DNA of 64,000 nt from Lophium mytilinum. Lineage: Eukaryota; Ascomycota; Dothideomycetes; Mytilinidiales; Mytilinidiaceae. Position numbers and translations under genes: made by a program. The notes under the pieces were generated by a model. That model searched no databases and was not told the origin of the DNA. It worked only from the letters and a program-made list of their open reading frames with translations. Shown here piece by piece: positions 19,365-63,616 of this stretch (positions are counted from its first letter, which is position 1; every line of letters begins with the position of its first letter). Where the stretch lies: the NCBI GenBank assembly GCA_010093605.1, contig MU004191.1, positions 1,357,832 through 1,421,831 on the forward strand, given 5' to 3'.

Positions 19365-20783
19365 ATGGCTGAAAAGGTGGATAAAACCGCTGAGCTTGGT
19401 CGAGATCATGAGAACACAACTCCCGGAGAATCTGACGAGTCAAGCCATGAGCAAGACGGTGCAGAGAAACCTAGCGATCAGAGTCATAATAAGGAGGAGG
19501 TCGAGGGAGACATAAAACACAACTCCACGCGTGGAAACGTGCTTTTCGCTTTTGGCCCTAACCGGTCGTACTTCATATACACGAACCCAAGGTGGCAATA
19601 GTATGTGTCTGCTTCAGACTGGGTCAGGTATTTTGATATCAATCTGACGCCCATACAGCAGTGGTCCTGGAGCTGTGGTGAAGGCCGTACCAGACACAAT
19701 ACTTCCCCCATATGCTGTCTCAATCACCCCCGAAGGCGACTTATTCTTGGCGTACAAAGACGAGCACCTCTCACCAGCTTGGACGTGGATCAACGCTCCA
19801 GACCAAGGTAAGGCTTTCTTGCCTCGGCGTTAGCTTCACAGTCAGAATATCTCATTCAATCATCCTCTAGTGATCGCGACTAGCGCTGCCGAGCAATGTT
19901 TGTAGCCACTCCTTACCACCTCGTGCGATTCTGATTAGAAATAGGGGCGCAGCAAAGAACAGCATATAAACAGTTATTCGACAAGATTGCAAAGTCTGAT
20001 GCTGGCTCCCTGGAGAAACTCCGCAACGTATCCGTAACCATCGGTCCTAAGGGCAGTTACTTCGCGCGCTCATCAACTGGCACACTACAACACAGACTCC
20101 CACCCGACCTAGCATCCTCAATCGCGACCCAAAAGTCCGCCAACCCGCCCATCGAGCCCACCCAAGTCGCTCTCGGCATCAACGGAACGTGGATCGCACT
20201 CTGGTCCGACGACACGTGCACATACAACATCGGCACCAACGCGCAACTCGAGGAGAACCTCTGCGATGAAACCAAGGGCCGGGTTGCATTCGCGGCGCTG
20301 AGCGTGCACAACGACGAGCATTTCTTCCTCGCATATGAGAACGGTGCGACATGGTATTGCGTGCCTACCACAAGCGACAACTACATCGGCCACGCTACGA
20401 ATGCGTACATGCAATCCCGCGCTCAGCAGGACGGCACGACGTTTCAGTTCAAGCGTTGGGACCCGCGGAGCACAACGCATGTGACGATATCGCCATCCAC
20501 GAAGTATGAGTTTCCGGCCCATCTTCACAAGGAGGACGCAGGGCCGCGTGCGTGGCGTCAGATGGTGCAAACGCGCCTTTTTTCCAGTATGGAGACCGAT
20601 GCGATGAGGAGACTGGGGATGCATAGATTGGCGAGAAGAGAGAACATGGTTGCGATGGGGTCGGCGGCGGTTAGTACGGCCGTTGTCTGTCGTGCTTTGC
20701 AGCTTTCTCGTGGCGCTACGATTGTGGCGGCGGGAGTGGCGGCGGGCGGGACGGGCGCGCTGTGCTTGTTGTTGCAGAAGTGA
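19365..20783 (+). CDS. Propeller-like protein with C-terminal membrane anchor
   Basis: The model is join(19365..19600, 19659..19807, 19939..20783), 409 residues. The introns (58 and 131 nt) restore one continuous frame. After an acidic, disordered first 55 residues come at least five similar segments with aromatic/Gly spacing: FAFGPNRSYFIYTNPRWQY, ITPEGDLFLAY, TIGPKGSYFARSS, ALGINGTWIALWSDD, and VHNDEHFFLAYENG. They read like blades of a beta-propeller. The C-terminus (VSTAVVCRALQ... to GTGALCLLLQK) is a hydrophobic Gly/Ala-rich stretch ending the protein, so it may be tail-anchored. I do not recognise a named family. The ATG at 19365 is preceded by an in-frame open stretch that looks like leader. 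Confidence 0.7.
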
Positions 20784-21038: not shown

Positions 21039-23290
21039 TCAAACCACCTCCGCCAACCTCCCCACCTCCGCTACCGCCTCCTCAAACCCATCAAACGCCC
21101 CAATCGGCAACCCACTCTCCGCCAGCACCCGCCTCCCCACCTCCTCATTCGTCCCCCTCAACCTCACCACCACCGGCTTCTCCACCCCAACCTCGCGATA
21201 CGCCAGCACCACCCCGGCCGCAATCATATCGCACAGCGTCAGCCCGCCGAAGATATTCACAAACACAACCGCGACACGGGGGTCCGCGAGAACCAGGCGG
21301 AAGCTAGTCGCGATAGTCGCGGCCGTGGCCTTGCCGCCCGTGTCGAGGAAGTTCGCGGGGGATGTGTGCGGCAGGCGGGTGGTTAGGACGTCGAGGGTGT
21401 TCATGGCGAGGCCGGCGCCGTTGACGAGGGTGCCGATGAGGTTTGTAGGGGAGGTGGGGGTGGGAGGGGAGGGCAGGGGGATGTAGACGATGCCAGCGGC
21501 CTCGGCTTCGGTTTCGGTAGGGGATAGTGCTGCGCGGAGGGCATGGAGGGTTTCGTGGCGGTACGCGGACTTGAAGGCGGCGTCGTCGAAGGTGAAGGAG
21601 GGGGTCGAGATGTTGAGAGTGGAGGAGGATGGGGGGATGGAGAGGTTGACGGTTAGGGTGAGGGCTTCTTTGGATTTGTAGAGGTCCCAGAGGTCGGAGA
21701 TGAGGGAGGCGGCGGCGGCTTTGGCGGCGGGTGGGGCAGCGTCGAGTTGGAGGTGCGAGAGGGCGGCGAGAATGGTGGATTTGGAGGGGCCGGTGCGGTA
21801 GTCGAAGGGGATGCGGCGGGAGCGTTTGGGGAGGTGCTCTGGGTCGGTCGTTGGGGAGGCTAGGACGCAAGGGCTGCGGGCGGAGCGGTCGATGGTAATG
21901 CCGACTAGGTGGGTGTCTGATGATGAGGGCGGGCTTGGGGAGACGGTGATGTTGTAAGGAGCGAGGAGCTCGGCGGCTTGATCTGTGGTGATGTGGAGAC
22001 CACGAGATTGAGGCAAGAGTTTCGAGCGAGAGAATGATGGCTGTGGGCGATGAGGCGTTTGGGAAGTCTGGTATGATCTTCGTTGGTTTGCAGCAGACTT
22101 TTGCTAGCATAGTGTCAGACGTATACGGCTGTAAGTAGGAATGAAGCTTACAATCTCTTGAACATTCCTTCCACTGCTTGATAGGAGTCCTTTCATCACA
22201 TTTCCAAACTTGGCTGGATGATCTACCATAGTAACCCCGGCTTTTTCCAGAGCTTTGTACTTACTCTCCGCATTGCCCTCTCCAATTCCAGTCCAAGCTC
22301 CTGCATGTCCCATGACTTGGCCAGGGACAGCTTGGAAGCCACCGATCACGGCTGCGATGGGCCTGATACAACTAGTCAGAGAGCGAGATAGGAGTTATCG
22401 AAGGAATATACATACTTGGGGTTCTCAGTCCGCTTTTTATAGTCTTTGATCCACTCGGCTGCCTCCTCCTCCGCAGTCCCACCCAACTCGCCTACTAAGA
22501 TGATTGCCTCGGTGTCCTCGTCCGTCTCAAAGATAGTGAGGCCGTCAACAAAATTAGTCCCAGCAATCACATCGCCACCCATTCCTATACACAAGCTTTG
22601 GCCGAGCCCAGCTCTTGTCAACGATCCAACAGTTTCGTAGCTCAGGGTTCCAGATTTGGCCACGATACCTATATGGCCAGGGGAGAAGGTTGACAGGGGT
22701 TGAAATCCAATCCTGCATTTCCCAATTGCTGAGATGATTCCAGGGGCATTAGCGCCGACTAGTCGTGACTTTGACTGAGTGCTGAGAATCGAGTGTATCT
22801 GAAATTCTTTAGCAACAGCTCATGGAAAGAAGAAGTAGTATCATAATACCCGCATAACATCATGCAGAGGGACATGCTCCGCAACCGCTACTATCAAAGG
22901 GATCTCTGCTTCAATCGCCTCCTCTATAGCTGACGCAGCATGCTGAGCTGCTACAAAGATGGCCGTTGCATCTGGGTTAAGCTTCTCTTTGGCAGCCCTC
23001 ACACTGGGCAGAACCGGAAGACCAAGATGCTCTGATGTGGTGCCAGGTTTCACGCCTCCAACGATATGGGTGCCCCAGTCGATTGACTGCTGGGCATTTG
23101 CTGTTGCTTGCTTTCCAGTGAAGCCTTGGTACATTACCCGAGTGTGCTTCCCAATCTTAAGGTTCGGGATGGTTTCCGCGTATCCATTGCGAGAGATAGA
23201 AGTCGAGAACGAACGAGGACCGTATTTACCAGCATACGCATGCCTTGAAGGATGTAAGACAATCCTTGGCGAAATACGGAGAATTAACAT
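21039..23290 (-). CDS. Fused succinyl-CoA-ligase-like protein (alpha + beta)
   Basis: The model is complement(join(21039..22103, 22152..22362, 22416..22798, 22850..23290)), 699 residues. Residues 1-35 resemble a mitochondrial presequence (Arg/Ser-rich). Residues 36-345 are a complete succinyl-CoA ligase alpha chain: CoA loop MYQGFTGKQATA, GVKPGTT, SGTLSYE, GELGG (E251), and the phosphohistidine motif MGHAGA (H294). After a basic linker, residues from about 381 are a beta chain that keeps VDRS-type (TIDRSARSP) and the CoA-ligase core LVNGAGLAMNTLDVL, PANFLDTGGKAT, VNIFGGLTLCDMI and VVVRLRGTNEE. The glycine-rich nucleotide loop of the ATP-grasp domain is missing, and the EINP/LDGK metal-binding motifs are not conserved. 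It may be a non-canonical or regulatory ligase. I recall similar fused proteins in other filamentous fungi. Confidence 0.85.
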
Positions 23291-36053: not shown

Positions 36054-37200
36054 TTAGCTCGTATTCAGCGGCGTGGTGAAGTCCGAGTAGTTGCAGTACT
36101 CGACCCACCCGTCCAAGTCCATGAGCTTGATGACGGTGCTGAAGTTCTCGGCGTCGGCGTTGGCGCCGCAGTAGCTGTCCACTTCGGACTTGGTCACTTT
36201 TTTGCCGGCGTCGGGGTACTCAATGTGGAAGACGGGCTTGTGGTGCGTGATGAAGGCGGTGAAGTTTGAGCACTCGGAGTACTGGGCGCATTGCTCGTTG
36301 ACGCTGAAGTGGACGAGGGGGAGGACGTCGTCGATGATGGCGGCGGCGTTCTTGAGGCCCATGGAGAGTTTGTGGGCGAGGGTGGCGTTGGAGAGGAAGG
36401 AGAGGAAGGAGATGCTGTCGGCTGGGGTGAGTGAGAGCCCGTTGGTGTTGGACTTCGGGTGGGTGTTAGTTATGTTGCATATACTTGTCAATCTACACTC
36501 TGTTTTGACGCTTTGTGGGAAAGAGAGGTAGGGAGAAGGCGGGGAGAGAGCGTACATAGCCATCAACGTTATCTGGATCAACACCATCACACCCCTTCTG
36601 CGCGGCTAGCTCTACCCTCTTCGTCATGATGTTCCGCACATTCGTGCTGTTAAGATTGAGCCAGTACTCTCCGGGCCACCCATCCATCTCCTTCCCTTTA
36701 TCCGCATCCTTGAAGTCGCCGCTATCTGGTCTGTCTGGCTCATAGCTGCCCGCACTGAAGTAGCAAATCACCTTCTTTCCCAGCTTGTGCAGCGTAGATA
36801 TGACCTCGGCGCTGTTCGTGAAGAGGTCGATGTCATACACCTCGACGTCCGGCGTTATGGATGTTGCGTCGGACGACAGCTCCAGCGGGTTCTGCAGCAC
36901 AATCTGCCAGGTGCTGTTGACGGTTGGCGCCCATGTGGGCTGTACGGTGGGCGATGGGAGGGGAGAAACAGTGCTTGTTGGAGCAGAAGAGGGTGACGAA
37001 GGGTCGTTGTTTCCGCTCCCTTTGCGGGTTAAACCAACACCGAGGCCGATTGCGAGAGCGATGACAATAATGATCACAACGGCACAGGCGATGAGGCTGA
37101 TACGTTTACGGCGGCTGCGATGCTCAATTGGGGCGTTGGATAGTTTAGAAGACATTGTGGTGTGGAGTAGGGGGTATTCGCTAGGAGTCGTGGAGACCAT
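36054..37200 (-). CDS. GH114 endo-alpha-1,4-polygalactosaminidase family protein
   Basis: The model is complement(join(36054..36452, 36556..37200)), 347 residues. One transmembrane anchor (about 33-58: ISLIACAVVIIIVIALAIGL) is followed by a Ser/Pro stalk, then a TIM-barrel domain with WQIVLQNPLEL, VEVYDIDLF, KKVICYFSAGSYEPDRPDSG, KGCDGVDPDNVDGY and, in exon 2, HIEYPDAGKKV. This matches GH114 (PF03537), which cleaves galactosaminogalactan, an exopolysaccharide of filamentous fungi. The acidic residues of YDIDLF and GVDPDNVD are probable active-site residues, by family analogy. The 103 nt intron is phase 0. A second in-frame ATG at 37155 could be the true start. Confidence 0.88.
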
Positions 37201-38252
37201 GGAGAGTGTCTTGAGAATTGAGAGGCTTTGGAATATGATGCGAGTAGGCGTTACAGTTATATAATAGGATCAGACCATATAAGTTGCTGCGACACAGGAG
37301 TGAGTTGCTCCTCTGCAAGTGCTAGTGGTGCAGACGTCCTCTCCTTTCACGCGACGGTCGAGGCTGAGCAGAGCAGCAACCCGAGCGACATTGAAAGAAC
37401 AAAATCTAGAGAGCTAGAGAGCTAGAGAGCTAGTACCTTGGTAATGAAGGATTTTAGCGTATTGAGTTGGAAGACTAACGTGCTCCTCCTGGCGCGAGTG
37501 TGGCTGAGCAGGCAAGCTCGGCCAGGGAGCTTTAGATTGCGTGGGCTGATGATATTCTACGATTATCATACCGGGCGCGGAACTGGTCGTGTATGAAGAA
37601 AGAGAGATACCCAGGTATGGCAGAGGGCGATGCGCTGGTGGGAGTAATGGCGACAGCATGGTCAAGAATGCGTGCATAAAGGCAACAAGGGAGGTTTCAA
37701 ACAGCTGCAATATATTCTAGAAGTGCAACTGTAGGCGAGCAGCTGCGCCTCATCTGGAGAGTAAAAGCATTGGAAGGGTTCCTGCGGGCACGGGCCGATT
37801 ACTAGCTAGACACGGGGCTCATCGCAGCTAGTACATACGCTATGAGCCTTCAGCTACCATTTCTTGTCCCTTCTCTCAATCTCCTACAGCTCGCCACGAA
37901 GGCCTCGATCACAGATCGGCAGCATGGTTAAACCCCGGCATCCAGTATCATGATCATGCCACCACAACAGTTGTGCAACCTAATTGGCTTCCCAGCAAAG
38001 TCGTTCGACCTTCCCTTTTGACTTTTGAACAGCCGAAAAGGGGCATTCGGGTTGTTTTGAGACAATCTGTTCATCCGGGTTTGGCACTTGCACTCGATCT
38101 TATAGTTCATAAAACTATATCTTGCCGTTCCACTCAAACTTTGCTTCTGTCTACTATTGCAGACATGGCGATATTATGATGCTAGCAAACTATACACTTC
38201 GCGCCTAGCCAATCCGCCGAGTAGTCATAGATAGAAAGCGTAGAAAATGCCA
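37201..38252. other. Intergenic with a small tandem repeat
   Basis: About 1 kb upstream of the GH114 gene. It contains three tandem copies of CTAGAGAG plus CTAG at 37406-37433. No gene seen. Confidence 0.5.
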
Positions 38253-59131: not shown

Positions 59132-62100
59132 TCAATCTCTCACGCTGATTCCAGTACGGGTGGTGAACATGCGCGCGGCAATGTTCATACTGGCCAGCTC
59201 CTGAAACAGCAGCTTCGCCGCATACGGAATCTGGACCTGCGAGATCTTGGTCTTGTTGTGGCAAGGGCGGCACTCGTACTCGCCTCTCTTGATTTGACTG
59301 TCGAGTATAGTTAGTATATAGCTTCCTGAAAAGAGGGAGGGGGTTTCATACGCGATTGGACTCATCAGCCCGCAGATATCACAGATGTGCACGCGATACG
59401 CATCCGAGACCTCGAACAACCGCTCCTTCAAGAAGGCTGCTGCGCCATGCGAAATCATGCAATCACGTTCCATCTCTCCGAAACGCAGGCCGCCGTCTCT
59501 CGCACGACCCTCGACGGGCTGTCGGGTAAGAATCTGTAGGGGTCCTCGGGCACGCGCGTGGATTTTGTCGTCCACCATATGGCGCAGACGCTGGTAATAG
59601 GTAGGACCAAGGAAAACCTGAGCAACCATCTTTCTGCCAGTATGGCCCTGGTACATGACCTCAAAACCACGACTATGGTAGCCGTGATGGCGGAGAATAT
59701 CGGAAACGCTCTGGACGGTGACGTCGGTGAAAGGAGTAGCGTCCCCTTCAGCGCCACGGAGAGAACCGACCTTTGACAACAGACATTCGATCAAATGAGC
59801 AATCGTCATTCGAGAAGGAATGGCGTGTGGGTTGATGATGATGTCTGGAGTGAGCCCCTCGCGAGTGAATGGCATGTCTTCTTGGCGGTACGTAATACCA
59901 ATCGTACCCTTCTGACCGTGACGGGAGGCAAATTTATCACCGATCTGCGGAATCTTCGTCGTACGCGTGCGCACTTTGACAAACCGGAGACCCTCAGTGT
60001 TGGTAGTGAATAGCACCTGATCGATGATGCCGTTTTCAGTATGTCGAAGCGGTGTGGACACATCACGCTTTGTGTGCATGATGGTCTTCTGGCCCAGCTC
60101 ATTAGCGTCTGGCGGAATAGGAGCTGTCTTTCCAATGATAACATCATCTCCAGACACACGAACTCCAGGTGCAACGACACCGTCGTCGTCAAGCTTATCG
60201 TAGGTCCCGCCCTTCATGCGGAGCGTGTCACTACGAGTCGGCTTCTCGAACTGCTCGAGAACGTTGACACCAATACGCTTCTCCTGTTCCGTGTATGACC
60301 GGTAGAACAGGCTCCTGAATAGACCTCTGTCGATGCTGCTTTGATTCATGATAACAGAATCTTCCTGGTTGTAACCAGAATAGCAGGCAATAGCCACAAT
60401 TGCATTCTGGCCAGCAGGGAGCTCTCGGAACCTAAGATACTCCATGGACCGCGTTGTAGCCAGCGGTTTCTGAGGATAGTAGAGTACGTTCATCATAGTC
60501 TCCATACGTAGAGCATAGTTCGTAATCGCAACTCCCATGGCTTGTTTACCCATAGCGGACTGGTAAGTATTACGAGGAGACTGGTTGTGGTCTGGGAATG
60601 GAATAATGCTGGCGCAAATCCCGAGGATCATACTTGGGTGAATCTCACAATGCGTATATGTTTTCACCGTTGGGTTTGGTTTCGGTTTGATCCGCGTGAA
60701 CCCATCTGCACCGTCCTCATCGCCTTCGAAGGTTCCCTGGCTTGCACGAGAATGGTCGACCAGGTCGTCTGGTGTCATGATAATCATGGCAGCCTCTTCC
60801 TCTTCAGCATCCAAGTACTCCACCACACCACTGTGGAGGAGACCTTTCCAGCCGAACTGGACTTCAGATTTCTCATCGTCGCTCATGCCTGTGGTGTCCA
60901 CAAGTTTATCGTCATGGAGCTTTTGAACATGAGACTTGTCCAGCACTAACATTCCGCGATTGGGTTTTCTTGGATTGTTTTCAACAACGAACAGAGGGCG
61001 CATAACTCGGCCGGCATCAGTGAAGATTTTGAACTCTCGATCGCGAATATCCCGAACAAGACTCATTTCGTACGACAGGACACCACTTCTACGTAGTTCC
61101 TGCACAACGTTTACGAGCTGAGATGGTTGCGTATGTACACCGACCCACACGCCGTTAACGAAGATTTTGGTTGCGTTTGGATTCAAGGTGGGGTCATATT
61201 CCTCGAGCAGCTCCATGTTGCGTTGAGTCATGAAGTCGGTAATCGGTGTGCTCTCGCTGCCCACAGAGACGTAGCACATCAGTGAGAGGTTTTTCACCAA
61301 TCCACAGGCCTGTCCTTCCGGAGTTTCTGCCGGACATACCAAACCCCAGTGGGTGTTGTGCAATTGGCGCGGTTTTGCGAGCTTCCCGTCGCGGCCAACT
61401 GGTGTGTTGGTCCGTCGTAAATGAGATAATGTCGACGAATAAGTGTAACGATTAAGGACCTGTGAAACCCCAGCTTTGGATGAGGCGGCCTTCTTTTGAT
61501 CGCCCCAATTGCCAGTGGCTAGGGAGTACTTGAGTCCATTTGTGATGATACTGGCTTTGACCGCTAGCGCGATGCTGAACTCCTGACCATGTTCCACGCA
61601 TTTCTGGAGGTACTTGTAGATATCCTTGGTCAGCCGAAGGAATAGTTGCCTGAAAAGATTGGCAATCAGGGGACCTGCGAGATCTAAACGCTTCTTTCCG
61701 AAATGGTCCCGATCGTCTTCGTCGCGTCGGCCAAGAACACACTGGAGAAGACGGTGGATCATGTAACCAAGGAAAAAGGCTTTCCTCGTGTCTTGGCCCT
61801 CCTTCTGAGATATATGTGGCAAGAATTCTCGCTGCATGATGTCCCGCGCGTACTTCAGACGCTTGTCCCGAGTACCGGTATTTTGGCCACGCTTCGCGAT
61901 CCAATCTAGCGCGGTCTCCCGATCTTGTATCATGGCGCCTTCCTCTATGCTAGGCTTGAGCAGCTCGAGCATTTGGGTGTCGTTCCGGTCGTAGACGATA
62001 TGATTCAAAATCTCTTCGTCGGACACAACTCCCAGCGCACGGAAAACAACAGATATCGGGACGTCTGCTTTGATGTATGGGAGAGTGGCGTAAGCGTAGG

Positions 62101-62974
62101 GACCGGGCTGTCGCTTGACGATCATGGAGTTCTCTGTCCACTTGATGTTGAAGGTAGAGATAAGACGAGATCCCTTCTCAACCGCACTGCGAATTTCAGC
62201 CGTCCAAGGAATGGGGCCTTGCTTCTTTCGGAACACCTGAACTATGTTCGCGGCACTCCGTTCTTGAGCAATGAGTACTTTCTCAGAGCCGTTGATGATG
62301 AAGTATCCACCTTGATCATAGGGACACTCCTTTTCCTGGTACAGCTTCTCGTCCGACTGATTTCGCAGATGGCACATCTCCGAGCGCAACATGACGGGCA
62401 GCTTGCCGATGAAAACGCGATTCGCTTCATCGTCGAGGTCGACTGGCACATCGCTAGGGTCCTCTTCTTCCCAATATAGTTCCGTTCCCCCAGACGTGTT
62501 GTTGTCGACGTCCATGTCGTCCCCGCCGGGATTCGCCGTGATGGGTCGTTCCCGGGCAACCATCTTCTTGTGCTGGATATTGGCCATCAAAGCCCCAGAG
62601 TAGGTGAGATTTCGCAGACGGGCCTCGTGTGGAGTCATGGCCATAGTAACACCATCACCTTCAGTATGCGTAGGGCGCGCCAACGAGACTCTGCCAAAGT
62701 GTATCTCATATCGCCGCTTGATGATGGGATCATCGTCCTCACTGTAGGGCGCATTCTGGTCCAGAATGACGTGGCCGTTCTCCTTCACAATATCCTGGAT
62801 TGTGTTGCGCGTGAACTCGTCGTACGAGTCCAGCTGCTGCGAGACCAGACCCTTTTGGAGGAAGAAAGAAGATATAACGGTCCAGCAGTCCTCGGCCGTT
62901 ATCATATCGGTATCCTCCACGTCTCCCTCCTCCAAGTACTCTTCATCATCATATCCGTCACCATTGTAAGCCAT
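59132..62974 (-). CDS. rpb2: RNA polymerase II second-largest subunit RPB2
   Basis: The model is complement(join(59132..59297, 59352..62974)), 1262 residues, the usual length. All landmark regions are present: [20 protein letters not shown], protrusion and lobe, the fork/switch region [20 protein letters not shown] and [20 protein letters not shown], the hybrid-binding block with [18 protein letters not shown] and the [15 protein letters not shown] motif, and the C-terminal clamp zinc site [11 protein letters not shown]...[11 protein letters not shown]. It forms the active-centre cleft opposite RPB1. The single intron (59298-59351, 54 nt, GTATGA to ACAG) is a multiple of three and stop-free, so an unspliced reading adds 18 residues between the two Cys pairs of the zinc site. 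A good taxon marker. Confidence 0.98.
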
Positions 62975-63616
62975 GTTGGCGATAGCGTTAGGAAGCTACG
63001 TGTGGGAGGCTTCGAGGTTGGGCAGCGCAAGTGAGGTATACGGCTTCGAGGACAGCGCGCGGCGCTGCGCAGTCAGCGGAGGTCGAGCGAGATCACCTAG
63101 GCGCTGGTAGCAGAAACGTCAGATTAGCTTGAAGAGCCCAGCAAGTATCCAGAGTGGTGCGCTCGTGAGGTGCTGCGACGGCGGCGCGAGGTGGCGGGTG
63201 AAGGAGGAGCTGGAGTCCTTGAGGTTCACGGCACGGGTGCTAACAAAGCCAAAGCAGGGGGCCTTGGCGCAAGCGCTCTTTGACACCAACCACGTGACTA
63301 CGCTCCACTTTTCGAAAAGTATTGCAGTCGCGCAACAGCGCAACGCCTCTTCACTCGATCATATAAGGCTGTCCAGAGTGGTTTGGCATAATGATGACAG
63401 CCTCATCCGCATAGTAGATTGTCACAATGCACAGGCTGTAGGCTCCACAACCCACGTCAAAGGGGCAGATATCTGGACTACAAGAGTGAACTCGCTCTGG
63501 ATACCTGAACGTTCATCAAGCAACCAAAGGTAGTGGTAGAATGGTGTAGACAGATCTATTCCGACGAAGCACATCTAGTAGAAACGCACATGGCAATACT
63601 AGTAGTAGACTCTCTT
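62975..63616. other. Upstream region of rpb2
   Basis: About 640 bases, rpb2 promoter and the 3' flank of the next gene (same strand). The plus-strand open frame 63129-63533 has no family resemblance. Confidence 0.5.

Follow-up and report, generated by a model that had tools for sequence, protein, structure and literature searches.

The window analysed here is a 64,000-nucleotide stretch of Lophium mytilinum DNA (C11:1357832-1421831, in a genome of 43.2 Mb on 24 contigs). It contains a gene whose product joins an SCS alpha subunit and an SCS beta subunit that seems to lack the ATP-grasp lid. By sequence, the single chain has the domain order 1-2-(lidless 4)-5, its nucleotide site has been lost, its conservation is domain-specific, and both H294 and E251 are kept. 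Our main reading, held tentatively at a probability of about 0.45, is that this mitochondrial-type fusion of an alpha and a lidless beta subunit is confined to work on the CoA side, in a half reaction or as an acyl-CoA-binding regulator; put more generally, the protein probably has an ATP-free coenzyme A job or a regulatory one. In the SCS/ACD superfamily, phosphate is passed between NTP, histidine and CoA chemistry. A protein in which the NTP half is gone and the CoA-ligase half is conserved makes it testable whether the two half reactions are evolutionarily separable, and what use a phosphohistidine has without a nucleotide.

Gene structure and genomic setting

The fused gene occupies 21039-23290 on the minus strand and has four exons encoding 699 amino acids, with no stops or frameshifts. 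Its introns, of 51, 53 and 48 bp, all follow GT..AG. The features of the gene are listed below.

23290-22850, 22798-22416, 22362-22152 and 22103-21039, minus strand: exons 1-4
22850..23290, minus strand: exon 1, with the presequence-like stretch and most of alpha domain 1 (CoA-binding)
23171..23290, minus strand: presequence-like N-terminal stretch, aa 1-40 (7 R+K vs 1 D+E in aa 1-45)
23099-23125, minus strand: GFTGKQATA in alpha domain 1 (exon 1)
22416..22798, minus strand: exon 2, with the end of domain 1 and most of alpha domain 2
22634-22660, minus strand: AKSGTLSYE (exon 2)
22478-22492, minus strand: GELGG with E251, aa 250-254 (exon 2)
22152..22362, minus strand: exon 3, with the phosphohistidine loop and the alpha C-terminus
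22296-22310, minus strand: GHAGA with H294, aa 293-297 (exon 3)
22104..22151, minus strand: intron 3, 48 bp, phase 0, with a terminal TAG
22005..22103, minus strand: linker, aa 346-378, resembling a beta-subunit presequence
21942..22004, minus strand: retained N-terminal helix of ATP-grasp domain 4, RGLHITTDQAAELLAPYNITV, aa 379-399
21906..21941, minus strand: 12-aa Ser/Pro-rich stretch replacing the lid (SucC about 22-107)
21444..21905, minus strand: degenerate rest of ATP-grasp domain 4, aa 412-565
21042..21443, minus strand: CoA-ligase domain 5, aa 566-699 (VNGAGLAM, PANFLDTGG, VNIFGGLTLCD)

Retention of intron 3 would lead into its in-frame TAG stop and give an alpha-only product of 360 aa. 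A full beta subunit cannot start within the beta exon, because no in-frame ATG occurs there before exon aa 234. The 699-aa model thus bears out the sequence-only reading in its description of the locus as one gene for an alpha-beta succinyl-CoA-ligase fusion. Homology to SucD sets in at about aa 45-46, and the presequence-like N-terminus suggests that the fusion enters mitochondria. The likeness of the linker to a beta presequence makes a fusion of two genes probable: an SCS alpha gene of mitochondrial type would have been joined to a beta gene, and the beta part would have lost the lid of its ATP-grasp (domain 3) and, in domain 4, several catalytic residues. The mean GC3 is 0.49 before aa 345 and 0.77 after it, with a step near aa 400; such a step inside one gene would fit two joined genes, and regional composition could also explain it. 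In twelve further open frames of the window, GC3 ranges over 0.50-0.82.

When the whole coding sequence was drifted at random to 50% identity (200 runs), a mean of 13.5 stops and a minimum of 5 appeared, against 0 in the actual gene. This control uses substitutions only and speaks for a kept frame, not for activity. Applied only to the remnant of domain 4, it was weak, with a mean of 2.8 stops and a minimum of 0 at 50% identity; at 20% identity the mean was 5.3 and the minimum 1.

Pfam models scoring above their cut-offs were CoA_binding (best stretch 48-139), Succ_CoA_lig (187-331) and Ligase_CoA, the last with 151.6 bits overall in two stretches, the best at 194-318 and the other at exon positions 226-344 of the beta exon (E 6.5e-23 in that exon). 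ATP-grasp_2 left a sub-threshold trace (E 0.07 and 0.17). The NCBIfam model sucCoAalpha covered aa 46-335 (8.6e-90) with 301 bits and missed its curated cut-off of 353; the SCS beta model matched from aa 411, at profile position 109 of 388 onward, with 182 bits, and missed its cut-off of 370. Judged by these matches, SCS is the nearest family, but neither subunit reaches its curated limit.

Elsewhere in the genome, a canonical SCS alpha gene lies on C17 (intact after one hand-set splice) and a canonical SCS beta gene on C3, so that the usual SCS job is left to others. ACL1-like and ACL2-like genes lie near each other on C8, the name ACL1 being an interpretation and not a model match. A second SucC-like locus near the start of another contig (C4:11943-12734) looks like a decayed beta paralog: it has an in-frame TAG and a likely other-frame match upstream, and SucC residues 1-69 were not found in its spliced alignment. 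In genome-wide searches made exon by exon with three families, no spare ATP-grasp partner was found; the matches to ATP-grasp_2 and Citrate_synth_N were SCS beta, ACL2 or the C4 relic, and ATP-grasp_5 matched nothing at an E of 0.001 or below. These results weaken the earlier proposal of a separate ATP-grasp partner.

Matches in 19 further open frames scanned in the window (RPB2, NPR2, a cyclophilin and others) did not suggest a pathway. One of these frames, at 59132-62995, carries all seven Rpb2 (RNA polymerase) Pfam domains; a Glyco_hydro_114 domain (E 7.8e-47) lies at 36493-37269, and a Fungal_trans domain is also present in the window. The convergent neighbour at 19935-20783, an open frame of 282 aa, matched nothing in Pfam at 0.001 and no PDB sequence at 0.1.

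The lid and the uneven conservation of the beta half

Passages of PMC11494057 assign domains 1 and 2 of E. coli SCS to the alpha chain and domains 3, 4 and 5 to the beta chain; the ATP-grasp consists of domains 3 and 4, and domain 3 is the lid, which lies within domain 4 in Nmar_0206. Exon 4 of the fusion opens with an acid-free stretch followed by RSKLLPQSRGLHITTDQAAELLAPYNITV, matching the presequence end and the first helix of the genome's own canonical beta. Residues 346-385 include 7 R+K and zero D/E, and 18/535 40-aa windows elsewhere in the protein are also free of D/E. The exon-4 start aligned with the own-beta N-terminus at a score of 49, which 0/1000 shuffles reached (20.5 +/- 3.8). 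Its match to the E. coli N-terminus was weak (score 27; reached by 30/1000 shuffles), so that the strong N-terminal-helix match rests on the genome's own beta. MAFFT placed the beta N-terminus on the lid end. We rejected this placing, which scored 16 against the own-beta lid end (shuffles 16.7; 628/1000 reach it) and 20 against the E. coli lid end (shuffles 18.2; 295/1000 reach it), and because of it the alignment rows for the lid and the domain 4 N-terminus were not used.

After the Ser/Pro-rich stretch, VGITIDRS corresponds to SucC from about residue 110, leaving a gap of about 85 residues (the lid) relative to SucC, with the domain border placed after the E. coli structure. The lid seems to have been removed with the preceding helix kept; since the N-terminal helix of domain 4 appears to be retained, this would be an internal deletion and not an N-terminal truncation. 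No hidden exon carries the lid, because the stretch from LLAPYNI to TIDRSARS spans ~15 codons inside one open exon. ATP-grasp_2 gave no match at the fusion locus in the whole-genome search.

In the rest of domain 4, EINP has become TVNL (aa 496-499), which retains the Asn of N199, and the LDGK region is the Ser/Thr-rich TLNISTPSFTFDD. The point losses are E197T (Thr496), D213T and K215S; E107T was left uncounted, as it falls in the Ser/Pro stretch and is alignment-dependent. We take N199 and D213 of SucC beta to be metal ligands. A complete ATP-grasp nucleotide site (lid, E197, N199, D213) was not found in the fusion, N199 being the only one of these to survive. The loss of the nucleotide site that had been read from the sequence is thus upheld by the absent lid, the replacement of E197 and D213, and the match of SucC models from position 109 only; both metal motifs read as described, with the Asn in the first of them surviving. 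According to passages of PMC10342173, the phosphohistidine is stabilised by E208alpha and E197beta and, as hypothesised there, swings over to E197beta, at the nucleotide site. In the fusion, the alpha glutamate is kept (E251) and the beta one is Thr496.

To count conserved positions, we used 106 distinct bacterial SucC rows including E. coli (108 were extracted from 110 loci, 30 of which were the best-scoring loci) and called invariant those positions shared by 98% or more of the rows. Domain 4 was taken as SucC 115-240 and domain 5 from 241, slightly ahead of the aa 566-699 stretch. The fusion keeps 12/34 invariants in domain 4 and 48/64 in domain 5 (Fisher p = 1.9e-4; p = 3e-4 and 6e-4 with invariance set at 95% and 100%). 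The corresponding values were 29/34 and 55/64 for the own canonical beta, and 26/34 and 57/64 for human SUCLA2, which is represented by one partial row copied from the alignment. The C4 relic, a single case, has lost both domains evenly (22/34 and 37/60). The contrast between the two domains of the fusion, which is absent in the relic, suggests that domain 5 is under selection and domain 4 released; by its sequence, the beta half does not look like a product of even decay. The CoA-ligase core of beta is therefore kept, as had been noted before.

Exon 4 was modelled with AlphaFold2 using 48 SucC fragments, with middling confidence (mean pLDDT 72, pTM 0.53) that was highest over domain 5; the model has a helix at exon positions 40-50. 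Its best Foldseek matches in a PDB library were SCS beta chains (E 5e-22, TM 0.49 by query length), at an rmsd of 8.7 that probably comes from uncertain domain orientation. The model supports the predicted fold and cannot alone prove the nucleotide site absent.

The alpha half and the possible work of the fusion

The alpha half is 50% identical to the genome's own alpha, 49% to human SUCLG1 and 46% to E. coli SucD. Its 133 invariants are positions conserved in 98% or more of the bacterial SucD rows and shared by the own alpha, which is therefore no control. The fusion keeps 91/133 (68%; 30/46 in domain 1 and 61/87 in domain 2) and has changed 42/133, including G21A, F23A, K43T, C124A, R153K, P182V, R244V and K256E (Met1 numbering). 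GPNCPG has become GANAPG, and SRSG has become AKSG; around the histidine, the fusion has GQVMGHAGAWTGIGEG and the own alpha GRRMGHAGAIVSGGKG. As 68% of the alpha invariants are kept overall, the survival of H294 and E251 is not significant by itself, and the CoA-side chemistry may be altered or lost, because several of the changed positions fall in the CoA-loop and phosphohistidine-loop motifs. The sequence-only reading had located E251 and H294 correctly, but in view of these changes its description of the alpha half as fully active was overstated.

In the tree, the alpha half did not group within the 33 bacterial rows and shared an unresolved node with the own and human alpha; its end branch was 4.88, vs 0.31 for the canonical alpha. 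The beta half (branch 7.3) joined the C4 relic (5.07), a long-branch join that we do not trust and in which the letter make-up of the beta half was flagged. When viral contigs were scanned with the beta exon, the 5 pattern matches included no relative. The prokaryote scan with the pair of E. coli SucC and own beta covered the best 80 of 531 confirmed relatives, apparently gammaproteobacterial by title, and is uninformative on lidless relatives. Protein databases may hold a fungal subfamily like this fusion, named as alpha subunit; a literature search by locus tag for such a subfamily returned nothing related, as judged by title and abstract start, and no title describing this alpha-beta fusion was found in the literature listings.

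In canonical SCS, two half reactions are joined by the phosphohistidine loop. The fused chain would fold as one SCS protomer, and alone it would no longer be capable of phosphate exchange with NTP. It might then carry out a nucleotide-free half reaction, acyl-CoA + Pi <-> CoA + acid + phosphohistidine; discharge of the phosphohistidine to another acid and CoA would amount to net CoA transfer without NTP. Alternatively, it might bind acyl-CoA as a regulator. Retained CoA-side chemistry is narrowly favoured over pure binding, since domain 5 has survived together with the phosphohistidine motifs and domain 4 has not; the many changes in alpha keep the edge small. That the substrate acid is other than succinate is a guess. 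We consider doubtful the more specific proposal of a mitochondrial nucleotide-free phosphohistidine enzyme, which would move CoA between acids, or form acyl phosphate from acyl-CoA and Pi, via H294 alone, and which would have discarded the ATP site and kept the phosphohistidine, unlike FdrA.

Of the rivals to CoA-side work, a non-catalytic regulator survives best, as a possible if somewhat unlikely explanation. Such a pseudoenzyme would bind acyl-CoA or join a mixed complex with SCS, and tune succinyl-CoA turnover without phosphohistidine chemistry; if regulation is all it does, the fusion would count as a pseudoenzyme of the TCA cycle that bears on succinyl-CoA levels in a filamentous fungus. 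The missing nucleotide site, the changed alpha invariants (K43T, C124A, R244V and K256E among them) and the very long alpha branch agree with this, but GHAGA, GELGG, AKSGTLSYE and VNGAGLAM are still present, and a pure binder would not need H294.

It is improbable that phosphate comes from outside, with the H294 loop visiting the SCS beta (C3) or ACL2 (C8), or with a nucleoside diphosphate kinase phosphorylating H294. The phosphohistidine motif is kept, superfamily members have shuffled domains, some on separate chains (in passages of PMC11494057), and NME1 and NME2 are described in a review as phosphorylating SCS alpha, NME1 being suggested to act on the active-site His299 (PMC11277029). Against an outside donor stand the genome searches with three ATP-grasp families described above, and the fused domain 5 would be expected to fill the docking place of SCS beta.

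A decaying or recently dead gene without function is very unlikely. Both halves have long branches, and in the degenerate domain 4 the drift control alone does not exclude lost constraint, but the 699-codon frame is intact across three plausible introns where whole-gene drift predicts stops, and the domain-specific conservation is unlike that of the C4 relic. The least likely explanation is an artefact, either of the gene model, with two genes read as one, or of the assembly, with the lid lost through misassembly: only one genome is involved and intron 3 retention would end an alpha-only protein, but the beta exon lacks an early ATG, about 12 in-frame codons stand in for the lid within one exon, and the point losses of domain 4 fit a real, old loss.

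Comparison with known systems

The NDP-forming acyl-CoA synthetases (ACD, e.g. 4-hydroxybutyryl-CoA synthetase) resemble the fusion in carrying domain 5 and the alpha-type domains on a single chain. ACD proteins are arranged 1-2-5 and have an ATP-grasp_5-type unit either C-terminally or as a separate chain. The fusion differs in the domain 4 remnant between domains 2 and 5, the genome has no ATP-grasp_5 match, and the SCS models (301 and 182 bits) outscore acetate--CoA ligase alpha (66 bits) on it. Its order 1-2-(4)-5 also differs from the 1-2-5-4-3 of Nmar_0206 given in passages of PMC11494057.

FdrA/AllF (oxamic transcarbamylase) is likewise SucD-like and of the Ligase_CoA superfamily, and a SucC match was not found in FdrA. 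Its reaction, in passages of PMC8550087 and PMC11326118, is oxalurate + Pi -> oxamate + carbamoyl phosphate. The fusion scored 31 bits with the FdrA model, vs a cut-off of 433. The SucD alignment of FdrA is without the GExGG glutamate and ends before the histidine loop, and GHAG was absent by eye, whereas the fusion has both. FdrA is thus a precedent and not a parent; by analogy, it indicates that a protein of the SucD/Ligase_CoA type can form part of an active enzyme that uses phosphate even when it has no SucC match. ATP-citrate lyase (ACL1/ACL2), of the same superfamily, has CoA-binding and ligase domains in common with the fusion, in which the citrate synthase domain was not above the Pfam cut-off; the genome carries its own ACL1-like and ACL2-like genes.

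Mitochondrial-type SCS (SucCD, SUCLG1/SUCLA2) shares with the fusion domains 1, 2 and 5 and a SucD-type alpha with the phosphohistidine loop (GHAGA) and the GExGG glutamate. Domain 5 of the fusion is 44-47% identical to the own beta, SUCLA2 and SucC, vs 19-22% for domain 4 with the same three. SCS has two chains; the fusion is one chain, with the lid deleted, E197 and D213 lost and 42/133 alpha invariants changed. The best reading is that the fusion is a mitochondrial-type SCS paralog without the NTP site, with a putative role in CoA-side chemistry or regulation.
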